This document shows, in pieces, positions 3,307 to 38,309 of a stretch of 45,157 nucleotides of DNA (positions are counted from its first letter, which is position 1; each line of letters starts with the position of its first letter). This stretch comes from a virus. Under the pieces are notes generated by a model. It had not been told where the DNA came from. It was given only the letters and a program-made list of their open reading frames with translations, and ran no database searches. The DNA lies in IMG/VR virus record IMGVR_UViG_3300033145_001380, positions 1 to 45,157 of that record. The stretch is one strand, 5' to 3'. A program made the translations under genes and the position numbers.

Positions 3307-4410
3307 TCATCGAAATGTTTTTTGTAAATTAGCCCTAACTTTTGCTTCTCTTTCTTTCTCGGTCATTTTAGAAGCGTCCTTAACCGAGACTACCTTCTTT
3401 GACTTGGCGGGTTTAAGAGACTTACCTCTTGCACGTTTCTTAACCTTCGCCTTCAACTCTGAGCGTATAGCATTTTCACGCTCAGGCTCACTCACGATCA
3501 GATGGGCTTTTTCCAAAGCCTCCTCAAGCGTGATCTCGCGACCCTGCCTCTGGCAGCCCATGATGATGCTATCGGCTGTTTCCAGCACTTCGTACCGATG
3601 GTCAGACTGCTCACGAGTTAACTTTGCCTCATCCTTACCTTTGCCGTAAAAATCGTTATACGGCTTGAGAGAGGGGTCAATGAAGAATTTCTGAATGCGC
3701 TCGACGATGGCTGGATTCAGTTCCTCCTCGGCATCCTGATTGCCTGGTTCAGATTTTGCAGCTAATTTATCAATTGTCTTCTGTTGTTCAAGAACAATCT
3801 TTACTACTGCACTATCTTCACCATATTCTGCTTTGAGGGCGGCAATAGCGGCGGTATCCTTGTCCACTGTGTCGTCGGTCTTTGCCGCAACTTCCTTCTC
3901 TTTAGCGGGTTTCATCCGTCCGATTTTTGCGAACTCCTTTGAAAGTTTGTTCGTAGTTTCGTGGATTTTAGCGAAAGTTCTAACCGCTAATTCCGGTGTA
4001 GCTTCAAAATACTCCGTTATTTCATCAGGTTTCCATCCCTGATGAATTGCTGCACGATAGTATGCTTCGGGCAGCGTTATTTCCTCTTCAACATCAGACT
4101 TTTCTTTTGCTTCATCTTTTTCTTCTTCGTCGTCAGGGGTAGAGTCGTCGTCTTCATTGTCTTCTTCTGCCTGTTTTTCGTCGTCTTTTTCATCTTCATC
4201 GTCGTCTTCAGGGGTAGAATCGTCAACTTCTTCGCCGTCATCTGCCTGCTCGTTGTCATCCGTGTCCTCTTCGTCCTTCTCCTCTTCGTCATCGGAAGAT
4301 TCATTAAAGACTTTACTGAGACCCGCTTCTACGGATTCTTCAAGTTCCTTGTCAGTAGTACTTTCGTCCTCAAGTTCTTCTTCTGTCGTCTTCTTTGCTG
4401 ATGTTGCCAC
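3307..4410 (-). CDS. Capsid scaffold protein
   Basis: I chose the GTG at 4410 because GGAGG lies about eight bases upstream; a TTG at 4425 is the alternative. The product has ~367 residues. Residues ~10-120 are an extreme Asp/Glu tract with only short breaks. Then comes a helical core (EAYYRAAIHQGWKPDEITEYF, PELAVRTFAKIHE) and a basic C-terminus (KAKVKKRARGKSLKPAKSKK). A highly acidic helical protein ending in a basic coat-binding tail, encoded directly upstream of the major capsid gene, is the standard picture of a scaffold that organises coat subunits and then leaves the prohead. The conserved-looking block FFIDPSLKPYNDFYGKG supports this. Confidence 0.8.
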   Translation of the reverse strand: MATSAKKTTEEELEDESTTDKELEESVEAGLSKVFNESSDDEEEKDEEDTDDNEQADDGEEVDDSTPEDDDEDEKDDEKQAEEDNEDDDSTPDDEEEKDEAKEKSDVEEEITLPEAYYRAAIHQGWKPDEITEYFEATPELAVRTFAKIHETTNKLSKEFAKIGRMKPAKEKEVAAKTDDTVDKDTAAIAALKAEYGEDSAVVKIVLEQQKTIDKLAAKSEPGNQDAEEELNPAIVERIQKFFIDPSLKPYNDFYGKGKDEAKLTREQSDHRYEVLETADSIIMGCQRQGREITLEEALEKAHLIVSEPERENAIRSELKAKVKKRARGKSLKPAKSKKVVSVKDASKMTEKEREAKVRANLQKTFR

Positions 4411-23730: not shown

Positions 23731-24873
23731 ATGAATACCACTGAGATTCTAAAATGTGCCAAATACCCTACAGACTTTGTGGTTTTGGATTTTGAGACAT
23801 ATTACAATAAGAACTATTCGCTGTCCGGCATGAGTTACTGGGAATATGTCAATGACAAACGGTTTGAAGTACTCGGCTGTGGGTTCAAGTACTTTAATGG
23901 TGGGGAGTATTTTATTTGGGGCGACAGCTTAGATTACTATTTTGAACAAACGCAAGAGCTATTTGGTAAAAATTTAGAAAACATCACAGTTGTGATACAG
24001 AATGTCTCGTTTGACGCCTTGATTCTCCAGGAAAAATATAACATCAAGCCAAAATTTATGATTGACCTCAAACACTTAGACGCTCATTTCGATAGCCGCC
24101 GGTCTCATCGGCTGAAAGACATGGCAAAGCGAGAAAATCTGCCCGATAAAGGTGAGACGATAAAATTTATTGGGCTGCATTTGGGTAATTTCACCGATGA
24201 ACAACGACAGGCCATGGAAGAATACTGCGGCAGAGACTGCGAATTAGAATTCAAACTGTTTGAAATCCTGCTGCCTTATCTCTCCAATGCCGAAACTGAA
24301 CTTGCACTTGCTCGACATACGGTAAATTTGTACCTTCAGCCCAGATTAAAATTTGATTTTGATTTGGCTGCCGAATTGAAGGCCGGGATGGAAAAATACA
24401 TTACAGACGCCTGCGAATCGGTAGGTATGAAGGCCAAGGATATTTCAGGCAACACAACTTTCACGGCAGCGTTGCAAGCAGTATTGCCCGAGGGCGAAAA
24501 AGTCCCAACAAAATATGGCAAACGCCCCGGTAAAAAGATGACTGCTTTACTCGGTAGAGAAGGAGTCATACCCGCATTTGCAAAAACAGATGATGGGTGT
24601 AAAATGTTACTGGCCCACCCTGACAGCAAAGTGCGTAACCTGATGGAAGCAAGGCAGACAGTGAAGTCATTGCCTTTGCACATTAAGCGTATCGATGCGA
24701 TGACTCGGCTCGCTACGGCTTGTGAAGGCTGGCTTCCTGTCCCCTTAGTATATTACGGATGCCATACAGGTAGATTTAGCGGGGGGGGCGGAATCAATTT
24801 GCAAAATTTAGGGGGTGGTAAACAGGGCACACATCCATTGATTAGGAAGATGCGGGAGTTATTGTATGTCTAA
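23731..24873 (+). CDS. Family A DNA polymerase, N-terminal part (3'-5' exonuclease and thumb)
   Basis: AAAGGA precedes the ATG. The 380-residue product starts with the DEDD exonuclease: VVLDFETYY holds D20 and E22, with VIQNVSFDALIL and later YCGRDCELEFKLF giving the other acidic residues. Then come helices of the thumb region and VYYGCHTGRFSGGGGINLQN, the conserved TGR-S-NLQN motif near residues 345-365. The frame stops after LIRKMRELLYV, just where polymerase motif A should follow. Motif A and the rest are found in the separate gene at 25431-26315. The enzyme is therefore split, with a methyltransferase-like gene between the two parts. Confidence 0.85.
   Translation: MNTTEILKCAKYPTDFVVLDFETYYNKNYSLSGMSYWEYVNDKRFEVLGCGFKYFNGGEYFIWGDSLDYYFEQTQELFGKNLENITVVIQNVSFDALILQEKYNIKPKFMIDLKHLDAHFDSRRSHRLKDMAKRENLPDKGETIKFIGLHLGNFTDEQRQAMEEYCGRDCELEFKLFEILLPYLSNAETELALARHTVNLYLQPRLKFDFDLAAELKAGMEKYITDACESVGMKAKDISGNTTFTAALQAVLPEGEKVPTKYGKRPGKKMTALLGREGVIPAFAKTDDGCKMLLAHPDSKVRNLMEARQTVKSLPLHIKRIDAMTRLATACEGWLPVPLVYYGCHTGRFSGGGGINLQNLGGGKQGTHPLIRKMRELLYV
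24865..24872 (+). repeat. 8-bp repeat at left edge of polymerase insert
   Basis: TATGTCTA occurs here and again at 25430-25437, at the two borders of the insert in the polymerase gene. The copies lie in different frames, so simple loss of the insert between them would not restore the polymerase. Confidence 0.5.
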
Positions 24874-24983
24874 AAACAACTAAAGGACACGATGTAGTAA
24901 GCTGTGACTTATCACCAACAGAAAGGCCGGGGCCTCACATACAGGGGGACATATTTAGTATTCTTGGGGATGGTTGGGATTTG

Positions 24984-25427
24984 ATGATTGCCCATCCACC
25001 TTGTACACATTTAGCCATAAGCGGAGCAAGATGGTGGAAAGAAAAACAAAAAGATGGGCGACAACAGCAGGGCATAGATTTTTTTATGGGCCTTATAAAT
25101 GCCCCGATTCCCAAGATTGCAGTAGAAAACCCGGTAGGTATAATGACAAAGGCTTACCGAAAGCCCGACCAGTATATCCAGCCATACTGGTTTGGTGATT
25201 CAGTCCGAAAGAAAACTGGTCTTTGGTTGAAAAACCTGTCACTGTTGAGGCCAACCAATATGGTTGACAAGGGGGAAAGTTACATCGACCCGCGGGGCCA
25301 TAAACATGGGGGAGCTTTTACTCTTCGGGCTTTAAGAACTGTCGCCTTCCCGCGGGAACCCCGGTGGAAAATACGGAGCCGAACTTTTCAAGGAATAGCC
25401 AATGCTATGGCGGAACAATGGGGGTGA
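24984..25427 (+). CDS. 5'-truncated DNA methyltransferase-like protein inside the polymerase gene
   Basis: The sense sequence begins near 24885 (KGHDVVSCDLSPTERPG, then HIQGDIFSILGDGWDL). No ATG, GTG or TTG starts it after the stop at 24843-24845; the first ATG is at 24984. The body has MIAHPPCTHLAISGARWW, APIPKIAVENPVGIM, KPDQYIQPYWFG and SRTFQGIANAMAEQWG. These match a phage family related to cytosine-5 methyltransferases, with HPPC in place of the PCQ catalytic loop and ENPVG as the ENV-like motif. The SAM-binding start (usually about 20 residues earlier) was replaced by the polymerase sequence. It is probably inactive, or else translated by -1 frameshifting from the polymerase. Confidence 0.7.
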   Translation: MIAHPPCTHLAISGARWWKEKQKDGRQQQGIDFFMGLINAPIPKIAVENPVGIMTKAYRKPDQYIQPYWFGDSVRKKTGLWLKNLSLLRPTNMVDKGESYIDPRGHKHGGAFTLRALRTVAFPREPRWKIRSRTFQGIANAMAEQWG

Positions 25428-25429
25428 TA

Positions 25430-25437
25430 TATGTCTA
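25430..25437 (+). repeat. 8-bp repeat at right edge of polymerase insert
   Basis: Second copy of TATGTCTA; it includes the ATG that starts the polymerase C-terminal part. See the left copy at 24865. Confidence 0.5.
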
Positions 25438-26315
25438 GTTCAAAACTAATTATCGCCGATGCCGCCCAAATTGAAGTACGTGTCTTGGCATGGTTAGCCG
25501 GACAAACGAATATGGTCGAGGCATTCGCGGAGGGTCGGGACATCTATAGTGAGTTTGGCACAGGGTTATTCCGTGCGAGACTAAGAAAACCCAGAAAGAC
25601 CGATCCTTCGCCTGTTTATAAATTGCTTACGATTCGCCGCGATTTTTCTAAAATGGTGATTTTGGGCGCGGGATATGGACTCGGCCCAACCAAGTTTCAC
25701 ACCAGTTGTTTGATGAACCCTACGTTACGTCCATTATTCGACGGCGGGGAGTACAACCTTCAATTTGTTAAGCGGCTGATAAAAGGATACCGTACCACAT
25801 ATCCACAGATACCTAAATTTTGGACAACGGTTGAAAAATGTTTCCGTATTGTAATCAGGCACCCCCACCAAGTAATGCGATATGCGCCGGAAGGTAGTAA
25901 AGTAGGTCAAGAAGATTTACTCACGTTCTGGAACGACAGCGGAACCGTCAATATCCAGCTACCTTCCGGTCGTATATTGTACTACCCACATGCTTCAATC
26001 AAAAAGAAGATAAACCACTATGACTATGATAACCAATTACGGTACCAACATGGTCCACTGTGGGGGGGAAGTTTGACGGAAAACATTGTGCAAGCTGTGG
26101 CTCGTGATTTACTTGGTTATTGGATACTGGAATGCGAAAAAGAATGTCTGCCGGTTGCATTACACGTGCATGATGAGATCATAGCTATAACGCCTGACAT
26201 GTTTGCAATAAAGAATCTTGAGGTACTGAATACTATAATGAGTAATGGGCCGGCTTGGTCAGAGGGAGTGCCATTGGCCGCAGAGGGTGAAATTACAAAG
26301 ACATATAAAAAATGA
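25431..26315 (+). CDS. Family A DNA polymerase, C-terminal part (palm and fingers)
   Basis: The ATG at 25431 follows GGGGGTGAT, a good ribosome site. The 294-residue product starts directly in motif A (KLIIADAAQIEVRVLAWLAG, catalytic D10). Motif B comes next (RRDFSKMVILGAGYG, with K74 and Y82), then motif C (ALHVHDEII, D248 and E249). All three catalytic motifs of the palm and fingers are intact. Together with the part at 23731 it makes a full-length polymerase (about 675 residues). The two polypeptides may assemble, as in other split polymerases, and the clean start argues for expression rather than decay. Confidence 0.88.
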   Translation: MSSSKLIIADAAQIEVRVLAWLAGQTNMVEAFAEGRDIYSEFGTGLFRARLRKPRKTDPSPVYKLLTIRRDFSKMVILGAGYGLGPTKFHTSCLMNPTLRPLFDGGEYNLQFVKRLIKGYRTTYPQIPKFWTTVEKCFRIVIRHPHQVMRYAPEGSKVGQEDLLTFWNDSGTVNIQLPSGRILYYPHASIKKKINHYDYDNQLRYQHGPLWGGSLTENIVQAVARDLLGYWILECEKECLPVALHVHDEIIAITPDMFAIKNLEVLNTIMSNGPAWSEGVPLAAEGEITKTYKK

Positions 26316-34253: not shown

Positions 34254-37200
34254 TCAAACCCGTCTATTTCTCCGGTTATTTTGAACCTGTATCGGCTGTG
34301 CAGCACGTGCTTCGTAAAGAATGAAAGAGAGTGCTTGGCTATATTCCACTGGCTTGCCACCACCCGCAGAATACTTTGTTAAAGCGCCTCTTAATTTGCC
34401 GCCTTTTTCTTCTCCCCTGCGATAACCGCCTTTACGGGAGGCGGTTTTATATTTCCCTTTATCGTCGATACCGAGGATTTCACTAAAAGACGTAAATTTT
34501 CTGCTCCTCCAATCTTCACCGGTTATAACATCTAAAAATATCCGGGATGTTACGCTTCCTTTATGCTTAGCAGAACGTACTGGGTGAATCGCAAATTTTA
34601 CCGGGTCTTTGAAATGGCCGATAAGTGAGAAGTATTTCCTCTTGTCATGGCTTCCACCTAATAACCTATATAACGGGGTTATATCGACGTCCAGCCATCG
34701 TAGACTCCCAGCTTTCCATGCTTTTTGATACCGTTCGATAAAGTCCTTATCATCGCCAGCGGCCATTAGGAGATTAAATATAATAGTAGCCACGCCCATT
34801 TTGAAAGCTACTCTCCCCCAGAGAGCGCGGTATATGGCACCTTCATCGCCCCCCTTAAATGCCTTAACCATTGATCTGATATTGGATTCTGTCCAGTCAG
34901 GGGCAAGAGTTACAAGCTGGAAGATGTGCTGGACAGTCGGGTTACGACCCATTCTTCTCAGATTGAGATTACCAAAGTCATCATTGGCATAATCTGCTAC
35001 CATTTTAGCGATATCATGCTGCGTTATTTCTCCTCTTTCCAGCTTCCCCCGATTCTTTTTTAGCTGAAAACGATATTCTAACAGTGCAGTTTGCACCTTC
35101 AAATAGGGCCCCAGTTTCTTAAACAGGAAATCTTTCTGCTGCTGCATAATTTCATTAACAGCATCCAGTCCTTTTTCTCCCGCTTCAAAATGTCTGGCAA
35201 CTCTACTATAAACAGTGTCCTTCTGCCACAGGTCTTCTTCATTCCATTCTTGTATCTCGCCCGTCAATAGGCCCCCCCTAACAAGTTGCTGGAATTCGGG
35301 TTCATAATTAAGTATTGCTTTTCTTCCTTTTTTGTAGCCTTTAACAGGACTAAGATTCTTAAAGCCGGTTCTTCCGCCCGCCATATATGACCTCAGATAC
35401 GCTTGATGGTGAAAAAATGAAGTCATCAGAATGTTCTGTTTGATTATCGCATTCCATTTCGACAGCCAGTCAATCCCTGCTATGCCTCGTAACTTAGACC
35501 CCGTCAAAGCATTATTTAATTTCTTAGCAAGAACCGGTTCGGCGTACATTTCAACCCGTTCCATAACAGTTCCTTCTTTTGTTACAAAGAAGTTTTGGCC
35601 GTATGCCTCGCCGGGTTCCGCCTTACCTGCAAATTTCCAAGTAGTAAAATTGGGGTGCTCTACTCTCACCCAACCTTCAAGTCGTTTTGGACTGATCAAA
35701 CCCCAGTCTTTCGCTAATTTCATAACCTGCTTATCGACCATAGCTTGGGTCACTTGCATGTGTGCTACTTTTTGAGCCTCAATAGCTCCTGTTATCCTAA
35801 GAGTTTTCCCAAGAGACCAACCATGTAAAATTCCTTCAAGAGTCCTCGCTTTAGCTCTTGCTGTTGTAGTACCGAATTTCTTAAACAGGGGTCTTTTTTC
35901 TTTCTGTCCCCAGAGTATCGCTGTATAGTATTCCTTAGAGTTGTGGATAACTTCTTGGTCTTTAGCTATATCACCAAAGGCTTTATTCTCTGCTATTATT
36001 TTATCGGCAAAAGATTGGACCTCAGGTGGGAGATTCTGGGCTAAATCTACTACCTTTTTTTGAGCCGCAGTTAATTTATCATAGTGCTTTATCTGATCAG
36101 GGTTATTCTGCAAATCAATATACACATGCACCGCGAAATCCATCAACTTTGCATCTTGACCATATTTTTTCAGCCCCATTATTTCTGTCAGTTCAGCTTG
36201 ATGCTGAGTAGCTACTACTTTTGTAGCCGTTTCTTTATCGTCCCGCTCTGCATAGAACATATCAAGCAGGGCAGAGGTATCTTTTGAATCGGAAGTTAAT
36301 CTTATCGGGGCCACTTTTGCTAATTGCGCCAAATTAGTCTGTACGACGGGTTCTACTGTGGGAGTAATCACGTCGCCAGAAGGCTTGATTCTTGCCACTT
36401 CTACTGATTCTTTCGCCGATTCTTTTAAGGTAATAACGCCTCCGGTTTTTGCGGCCTGTCTGCCGTACTCATTACTGAATTCGGCTATCTGGTCGCCAAC
36501 GGCTTTTATTCGCTCGAAGCCCTCTTTCGATGGGGATTCTGTAAAGCTATTTATCGCGTCGGCGTATTCCGGTAGCAGTTCTTCTATCTTGCCAAGCTCA
36601 GCCAGTAATTCGGGGTTATCTCTTATGTCCTCAGAAATGTTGTCGTAATGTTCTTGTATCTTCGCCAGATCAGATTTCATTACTTTAACTTGTGATTCCT
36701 TGCTGCCCGCACCAGCGACGATGTTATCAGCATTATTTCTGATAGAGGTTAGCTTCGCAACAAAACCTTTGGAGTATACCTTACGGAGTACCCTTTTTTT
36801 GGTTACTTCCGTGATGATTTGTGCAGTAGGTGTAGTACTAAGCCTATCGCGATAATCTTCAGCCATTTTTTTAGCGGCAGCAGCATTACGTAATTTTATA
36901 GAGTGTACTTCTTTACCATTCAGCTTGAATAATACCAGATTATCTTTGCCGTTAAATATATCTTTTGTTTCATCGTATTCTATTTGTGTTCCGGGAATAA
37001 AGGATGTAGCGGGGGTTGTATCACCTGCTCTTGCTGCCGCTTCAACAATGCCTTCATACAATCCCGCTTCTTTTTCAACTCCAATAGCCTGCTCGGTCGT
37101 TTGCTGAAGAGTGTGAAGCATAGCTTTTTTTTGGTCATCAGGCATATTGGGGCTTTTCTCAATCTCATCGGCTATTTCTTGTGCCCGATTCAGGGTAGCG

Positions 37201-38309
37201 GCTTCTTTCTCATTGGTAGCCTGTCCAACTATGCCGCCTGCTCCGCCGCCCGCTGCTCCTGCTGCTCCAGTCATTGTAGCCGCGATTAGACCTTCTTGTG
37301 CTCGCCGGTCAATGAACCCCCGTAGACCGCCTACAGGCTTCTTACCGTATAAAAGATAGGCGGTAGCTTCCTGCCAGGTACCTTGGGCCATTTCTTCGAC
37401 GGCCTCCCTAAGGGACTCTTTGATAATTCTTGGCGTAAGTCTTTTAAGAGTGCCGATTTTCCCTACTGCTCGCTTCAATACTGATTGATATGATTTTTTA
37501 CCAACTCGCATAAAGCCTTTTAGCTGTAAGTTTTCAAGGACCGCTGCAACTGATCCATACATTACATAGGCATCACCAGCAGTTTTTTCAGTCTGCCCAT
37601 CGGCGATAGCTTGGTCATAAGCCTGCTGGCCCTCAGAGGTAAATAATAGTGTATACCCGATCCCCGGCATTCCCCCAGCACTAGCGAGACCAGCAGCAAC
37701 AAGAAGCGGGGTAGACTCTACAACTGCCGCGGCTAATTTATCCGGGTGGGTAATTAAATCTTGGAAATTCTTTGGGGGAATCGTTGCCCATTCAGGGTGG
37801 CGTTCGTAGATTTCTTCTATCTGTTTATCCTGGCCACTTAAAAAATCTTTGTACCAATCCTGAACTGCCCCGATAGCCTGCTTCGTTGGGCCCGATTTCG
37901 GGGGAGTACGTCCTACAGGTGCGTAAGAAGGCCCGGTGTATTTTGTTTTTGATAAGTTTCTAATTCTGTCCATTACATGAAGCGGAGCATAGGCCATCCC
38001 ACGACCAAGATTCCCGACGCCCCTGATAGCTGCCCCTTCCACCCGTTCAAGTAGTGTGCCCGCTCCCGGTTCAACTTCACCATGGCTACGTACCTGAATT
38101 TGTGTGAGCATTTTCTCAGCGGCTGCACGCGGACTGAAATTGGGGCCGACTATCGACCGGTCTGGGGCCTGTTCTTCAGGTTTAGGTGCGGGCCCAATAG
38201 CCCCTTGCCTATCCATTTCAAAGCCACCGGCGAGCCTATCAAATATATCTGGCTCTTGCTGTTGCTGTTGCTGTTGTTGCATCGCCAATCTATCGAATAT
38301 GTCCGCCAT
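34254..38309 (-). CDS. Large internal virion / ejection protein
   Basis: This 1351-residue protein has an ATG that overlaps the previous stop (TAATG). The N-terminus has the repeated motif DIFDRLA twice, separated by a poly-Gln run. A hydrophobic Gly/Ala region is near residues 200-240 and again near 340-360. A long helical middle and a conserved C-terminal half follow (DWLSKWNAIIKQNILMTSFF, MGVATIIFNLLMAAGDD). Length, DIFD motif and position match large virion or polyvalent proteins of podoviruses that are ejected with the DNA. No lysozyme motif was recognised. Confidence 0.75.
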   Translation of the reverse strand: MADIFDRLAMQQQQQQQQEPDIFDRLAGGFEMDRQGAIGPAPKPEEQAPDRSIVGPNFSPRAAAEKMLTQIQVRSHGEVEPGAGTLLERVEGAAIRGVGNLGRGMAYAPLHVMDRIRNLSKTKYTGPSYAPVGRTPPKSGPTKQAIGAVQDWYKDFLSGQDKQIEEIYERHPEWATIPPKNFQDLITHPDKLAAAVVESTPLLVAAGLASAGGMPGIGYTLLFTSEGQQAYDQAIADGQTEKTAGDAYVMYGSVAAVLENLQLKGFMRVGKKSYQSVLKRAVGKIGTLKRLTPRIIKESLREAVEEMAQGTWQEATAYLLYGKKPVGGLRGFIDRRAQEGLIAATMTGAAGAAGGGAGGIVGQATNEKEAATLNRAQEIADEIEKSPNMPDDQKKAMLHTLQQTTEQAIGVEKEAGLYEGIVEAAARAGDTTPATSFIPGTQIEYDETKDIFNGKDNLVLFKLNGKEVHSIKLRNAAAAKKMAEDYRDRLSTTPTAQIITEVTKKRVLRKVYSKGFVAKLTSIRNNADNIVAGAGSKESQVKVMKSDLAKIQEHYDNISEDIRDNPELLAELGKIEELLPEYADAINSFTESPSKEGFERIKAVGDQIAEFSNEYGRQAAKTGGVITLKESAKESVEVARIKPSGDVITPTVEPVVQTNLAQLAKVAPIRLTSDSKDTSALLDMFYAERDDKETATKVVATQHQAELTEIMGLKKYGQDAKLMDFAVHVYIDLQNNPDQIKHYDKLTAAQKKVVDLAQNLPPEVQSFADKIIAENKAFGDIAKDQEVIHNSKEYYTAILWGQKEKRPLFKKFGTTTARAKARTLEGILHGWSLGKTLRITGAIEAQKVAHMQVTQAMVDKQVMKLAKDWGLISPKRLEGWVRVEHPNFTTWKFAGKAEPGEAYGQNFFVTKEGTVMERVEMYAEPVLAKKLNNALTGSKLRGIAGIDWLSKWNAIIKQNILMTSFFHHQAYLRSYMAGGRTGFKNLSPVKGYKKGRKAILNYEPEFQQLVRGGLLTGEIQEWNEEDLWQKDTVYSRVARHFEAGEKGLDAVNEIMQQQKDFLFKKLGPYLKVQTALLEYRFQLKKNRGKLERGEITQHDIAKMVADYANDDFGNLNLRRMGRNPTVQHIFQLVTLAPDWTESNIRSMVKAFKGGDEGAIYRALWGRVAFKMGVATIIFNLLMAAGDDKDFIERYQKAWKAGSLRWLDVDITPLYRLLGGSHDKRKYFSLIGHFKDPVKFAIHPVRSAKHKGSVTSRIFLDVITGEDWRSRKFTSFSEILGIDDKGKYKTASRKGGYRRGEEKGGKLRGALTKYSAGGGKPVEYSQALSFILYEARAAQPIQVQNNRRNRRV

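Follow-up and report, generated by a model that had tools for sequence, protein, structure and literature searches.

The replicative family A DNA polymerase of an uncultured phage is encoded in two frames, parted by a truncated methyltransferase-like gene, and the best explanation of this arrangement, which on our analysis we hold with somewhat better than even confidence, is that the enzyme is made as two chains. The window, by which we mean the whole stretch of DNA that was analyzed, is an entire IMG/VR virus record of 45,157 bases and consists of one metagenomic contig. A precedent exists in the phages MEP401 and MEP402, whose family A polymerase is divided in the corresponding loop just ahead of motif A (PMC10580990); what is new here is the methyltransferase cargo, together with the recurrent use of one split site in one lineage.

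In the arrangement that we propose, chain N (exonuclease and thumb) would be translated first and would stop within the loop, short of motif A; chain C, with the palm and fingers, would start at its own ATG by means of a ribosome site formed by the end of the methyltransferase gene, and the two chains would associate non-covalently into a single polymerase. The loop site would repeatedly have taken up methyltransferase genes, an MT-A70 pair in a second phage, L146, and a cytosine-type gene in the window. The features of the locus are listed in Table 1.

Table 1. Features of the split polymerase locus, in window coordinates.
Feature	Position	Strand	Remarks
Polymerase half N	23731..24873	+	380 aa; 3'-5' exonuclease, thumb, HTGR and NLQN motifs
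TATGTCTA, 8-base direct repeat, left copy	24865..24872	+	Insert end
ATG and five codons (ATG TCT AAA AAC AAC TAA)	24866..24883	+	Overlaps the end of half N
Insert, outside the polymerase	24874..25430	+	Missing from continuous relatives
5'-truncated DNA (cytosine) methyltransferase-like gene	24880..25427	+	phrog_757 match; HPPCT and ENPV motifs
GGGGGTGA, last codons and stop of the methyltransferase	25420..25427	+	Shine-Dalgarno-like site for half C
TATGTCTA, 8-base direct repeat, right copy	25430..25437	+	Insert end
Polymerase half C	25431..26315	+	294 aa; motifs A, B and C (palm and fingers); own ATG

Two polymerase frames with a full set of catalytic residues

The preliminary description had placed the exonuclease, thumb and NLQN motifs in one frame and motifs A to C in another, with every catalytic residue intact, a ribosome site belonging to the second part, and the insert in the loop right before motif A. 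Each of these points is borne out. Searches with Pfam and with phrog_17 (PHROG 17, DNA polymerase) recovered both frames at the positions claimed: half N matches DNA_pol_A_exo1 (4e-9), and half C matches DNA_pol_A (1.2e-14; 54.6 bits against a cut-off of 34.3). Positions 668-999 of the phrog_17 profile are matched by half N and positions 1007-1231 by half C, with about seven positions at most lost at the split, and thus almost no polymerase sequence is missing.

The catalytic sites were read from an alignment of the window with L146 and 43 loci that encode a continuous polymerase. All of the exonuclease residues (D20, E22, D95, Y165 and D169) are kept in half N, as are the D and E of motif A, the K/Y of motif B and the HD of motif C in half C. 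The locus therefore has the exonuclease residues and the A, B and C motifs that define a family A DNA polymerase (PF00476 and PF01612), but it is not a single continuous chain; the window polymerase is two frames with 557 bases between them. A single continuous chain is usual for family A DNA polymerases without being obligatory.

In an AlphaFold model of the intact enzyme of the closest relative, L010 (pLDDT 92, pTM 0.91), the split maps to residues 398-403, a stretch predicted to be a short loop between the helix at 389-397 and the motif A strand at 404-411. The solved folds nearest to this model are phage G20c Pol I, Aquifex Pol and Klenow. Half N ends ...KMRELLYV-stop, that is, within the loop directly ahead of motif A, and half C of the window, when modeled alone, is predicted to be compact (pLDDT 89.5, pTM 0.88).

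No second polymerase of family A, B or C was found elsewhere in the window record. The window also has a minus-strand frame, 34254-38309, of 1351 aa, for which PHROG gave no match at E 0.001. Half C alone also matches phrog_10285 (321 positions) and phrog_7766 (186 positions), short families annotated as 'DNA polymerase' that may themselves derive from polymerases split in other phages. The split also calls for caution with phage annotations, in which a short gene labeled 'DNA polymerase' may be half of one enzyme. The nearest match to a genome contig, in a Lentisphaerae bin, was only 35% identical, which was too weak for a bacterial host to be named.

A truncated methyltransferase gene in the insert

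The insert had been described as a methyltransferase-like gene, and this holds for the family to which it belongs though not for a whole gene. It matches phrog_757 'DNA methyltransferase' with an E value of 1.5e-53 over profile positions 33-219 of 247, and in annotated phages phrog_757 is a DNA (cytosine) methyltransferase. The only families found for the insert in PHROGs were of the methyltransferase type, and there was no match to it in Pfam or NCBIfam. At its 3' end the gene is complete, with the HPPCT and ENPV motifs and the C-terminal end all there. When compared with 79 related loci, it is without the SAM-binding N-terminus, approximately the first 20 residues being missing. In particular, the ACE[FY]SG motif, found upstream of GHD in the 79 relatives from elsewhere with two exceptions, is absent from all three frames of the window insert, and there is no in-frame ATG, GTG or TTG for the methyltransferase before 24981, the first common start codon being the TTG at that position. 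The profile match of the phrog_757 gene in another locus, L018, begins at position 11, compared with 33 for the window insert. (Two other phrog_757 loci, L078 and L082, were also without an N-terminal ACE[FY]SG in the frame read.) Because both the SAM-binding N-terminus and a normal start are missing, the encoded methyltransferase is, on the evidence of its sequence, probably inactive, and the gene is probably a decayed passenger.

The short frame that begins at 24866 may be a remnant of a gene that was replaced. In L146, the equivalent spot holds the start codon of the first of two MT-A70 genes (ATG CTT AGA AAA TAT...), a likeness that is short and only suggestive. A tblastn search for an MT-A70 remnant in the window gave no significant match, so this short likeness is the whole basis for an MT-A70 origin of the frame.

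The methyltransferase gene closes with the codons TGG GGG TGA, which give the ATG at 25431 a strong ribosome site, with a duplex energy of -9.7 kcal/mol; the best 1% of random positions in the window start at -10.0. In many relatives, the phrog_757 methyltransferase ends with the ATG of the next gene often following directly. The two ends of the insert carry an 8-base direct repeat. Among 3000 random pairs of 30-base stretches, 36 had a word of this length in common, and octamers of the pattern ATGYYTAR occur in the window no more often than chance would predict. (Note that a programmed frameshift that would carry ribosomes from half N into the frame of the methyltransferase was considered and set aside, as no slippery site was seen at the stop.)

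Continuous relatives and a second split phage

In L010, the polymerase is continuous and reads through the split site as MRNLILANEHSKLLIVDSAQIEAR. Identity between the window and L010 is 73% for half N and 74% overall (73-75% across comparisons), and dN/dS is about 0.1 and low in both halves, with dS near saturation; because the window is a single contig, most of this divergence may predate the split, and the ratio is therefore no gauge of selection since that event. The polymerase is likewise continuous in 226 of the 242 loci with a polymerase match, a count in which some contigs figure more than once. The others are contig-end cuts or partial matches, with the exception of the window and L146. 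The preliminary description had taken a continuous frame in relatives to count against the split; such frames are indeed the rule, yet they do not refute it, because L146 shows the split again in another contig. Further scans of viral records did not turn up a third split member of the lineage.

L146 (IMGVR_UViG_3300033148_004867) encodes a polymerase that is 66-69% identical to that of the window (69% for half N) and is split in the same loop. Its half N ends ...KMRELLYA-stop and its half C starts MPNVSKLIIVDSAQIEAR; both halves are open and, in the alignment, keep every catalytic residue. Between them lie two intact MT-A70 methyltransferase genes (99 and 116 bits in Pfam, over the full profile), which are 47% identical to one another, and at both ends of the insert there are 8-base overlaps with the polymerase halves. 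L146 thus resembles the window in its lineage, in the loop that is split and in having methyltransferase genes in the slot; it differs in that its two genes are intact and of the MT-A70 (DPPW, adenine) type, whereas the window has one truncated gene of the cytosine type.

Methyltransferase genes are ordinary neighbors of phage polymerase genes. In L018, the gene immediately before a continuous phage family A polymerase is a phrog_757 methyltransferase, and in L025 and L028 such a gene is followed by the start of a family A polymerase gene, at which the contigs end; in all three loci the end of the methyltransferase overlaps the start of the polymerase. In L098, an MT-A70 gene (about 3855-4370), which shares 72% identity with the second of the two in L146, is found just downstream of a continuous polymerase of the window lineage. 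(Three relatives, L124 and L125 (both with a polymerase ORF of 921 aa) and L143 (834 aa), have in-frame inserts at motif B, with ends that by eye look intein-like: ILG/CLAHGTPIQTDNG...LCSN/CGYGMG and KA/CIAEGTLVYTDHG...IVHN/CILGLGYAMG, where the slash marks the junction.)

In phylogenetic trees, the window groups with L010 (100/98 support) and L146 falls outside. Since L010 is continuous and yet nearer to the window than L146 is, the split either arose twice or was lost or moved. We give about even weight to a single split in the common ancestor of the window and L146 with later exchange of the insert, a history that is compatible with a two-chain polymerase. In its favor, the two phages share the end codons of half N (MRELLY[VA]-stop) with an overlapping ATG at the left end, both have ATG[CT][CT]TA at either end of the insert, and over the final 60 bases of half N the window has an identity of 0.70 to L146 as against 0.56 to L010. 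Against it, the trees join the continuous L010 with the window, and a clade of the window and L146 was rejected for half N (p 0.013) but could not be rejected for half C (0.13) or the two halves joined (0.067). Whether there were two insertions at one spot, or a single ancient split followed by refusion or transfer, the spot is special. A more elaborate scenario, which we put forward only tentatively and consider decidedly improbable, is that the loop before motif A acts as a standing exchange slot: the polymerase would be kept as two chains while methyltransferases were swapped in, the methylation function would be translated along with the replicase and might be physically coupled to it, and the cargo of the window would have been replaced and then partly lost.

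Alternative readings and comparison with known split polymerases

A two-chain polymerase is favored by the two long intact frames, by their being the sole polymerase in the record, by the parallel in L146 and by selection on the split enzyme of MEP401 and MEP402. According to PMC10580990 (2023), these are isolated OM43 phages of the Zobellviridae in which the family A polymerase is encoded in two ORFs with a 77-aa ORF of unknown function between them, and most of the metagenomic genomes related to them share the split. In our alignment, their split lies in the same loop as that of the window (gp13 ends ...NLQNFDGEIKTLFLSRYGE and gp15 starts MILNADAKALEW). Since MEP401 and MEP402 diverged, dN/dS has been 0.128 in the N chain and 0.071 in the C chain, which indicates that both halves of the split enzyme are under purifying selection. 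Because L146 is split alike and the MEP401 and MEP402 halves are under such selection, we consider a functional two-chain enzyme in the window plausible. What speaks against this reading is the placement of the continuous L010 nearer to the window than L146, and also the truncation of the methyltransferase, in that part of the locus has decayed.

The same truncation suits a different account, in which the insertion recently inactivated the polymerase, the phage either is defective or replicates with a polymerase of its host, and the frames are still open as the event is young. That the inserted gene is itself damaged, that the nearest relative is continuous and that selection since the split cannot be gauged from a single contig are all points in its favor. 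We nevertheless think it unlikely: L146, despite the sequence distance that separates it from the window, is divided alike, its two halves being open and catalytically complete, MEP401 and MEP402 grow with a polymerase split in this loop and keep both halves under selection, half C has a strong ribosome site, and the record has no other polymerase of families A, B or C.

Much less probable is an assembly artefact, that is, the methyltransferase gene of another phage mis-assembled into the polymerase. The contig is metagenomic, the insert begins on its left at a ragged junction and methyltransferases of this family turn up in many viral contigs (302 relatives of the query), but an artefact would need two separate false joins in one gene, at the very loop that is split in L146 and MEP401, and the base composition hardly changes from one side of the joins to the other (0.44, 0.47 and 0.45).

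Least probable of all is that the halves are rejoined by a self-splicing intron, an intein or ribosomal bypassing that removes or skips the insert; although introns are common in phage polymerase genes (PMC11878797), the cyanophage Mic1 has one inside motif A (PMC7156551) and some relatives have the intein-like inserts at motif B, Rfam gave no intron or RNA family at the gathering threshold in the window and none of relevance at E<=5 in 24700-25600, a methyltransferase coding frame occupies nearly the whole insert, and half C is equipped with an ATG and ribosome site of its own. The insert cannot be an intein, since it does not share the frame of half N and closes with its own stop ahead of half C. 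No ribozyme core of a group I or group II intron matching Rfam was found in the insert, and it encodes a methyltransferase-type family with no homing endonuclease match. The 8-base repeat was likewise rejected as a simple splice or excision signal, since removal between the copies gives TAT GTC TAG, leaving a stop and the wrong frame.

The split adds methyltransferases to the cargo known from within phage replicase genes. The preliminary description knew of no family A phage polymerase split at this place by this type of gene. As regards the place, this does not stand, given MEP401 and MEP402 (PMC10580990) and, near motif A, Mic1 (PMC7156551); as regards the cargo it does, and we found no paper that describes methyltransferase genes at this polymerase split. 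The window insert belongs to phrog_757 by sequence and differs in having lost both the ACE[FY]SG motif and the start codon, which nearly all other members keep. Methyltransferases are not known to act as mobile cutters.

The closest known system is that of MEP401 and MEP402. Like the window, it has a chain with exonuclease and thumb, a chain with palm and fingers and a small gene between them, the split being in the loop before motif A and the second chain having a separate start; it differs in that the insert encodes an unrelated 77-aa protein and no methyltransferase, and in that the polymerases are only distantly related to that of the window. Splits in the same loop, in the window lineage and separately in these distantly related phages, point to a permissive cutting site at which a family A polymerase could be cut in two and still work, a property that would be useful for the design of split polymerases. 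Mic1 also has a family A polymerase (gamma-type) in two ORFs, ORF86 and ORF85, parted near motif A, whereas there the interruption is described as a 298-bp intron within motif A, with no gene reported in it (PMC7156551). The group I introns of SPO1, Bastille and T7-like phages (PMC11878797) are similarly foreign DNA that interrupts a phage polymerase gene, but they are spliced out by a ribozyme and often come with a homing endonuclease, neither of which was found in the window insert. Finally, in the jumbo phage MIJ3 a replicase gene is again broken by an inserted gene, although that polymerase is of family B and the interruption is described as a split intein with an HNH endonuclease (PMC6892783).
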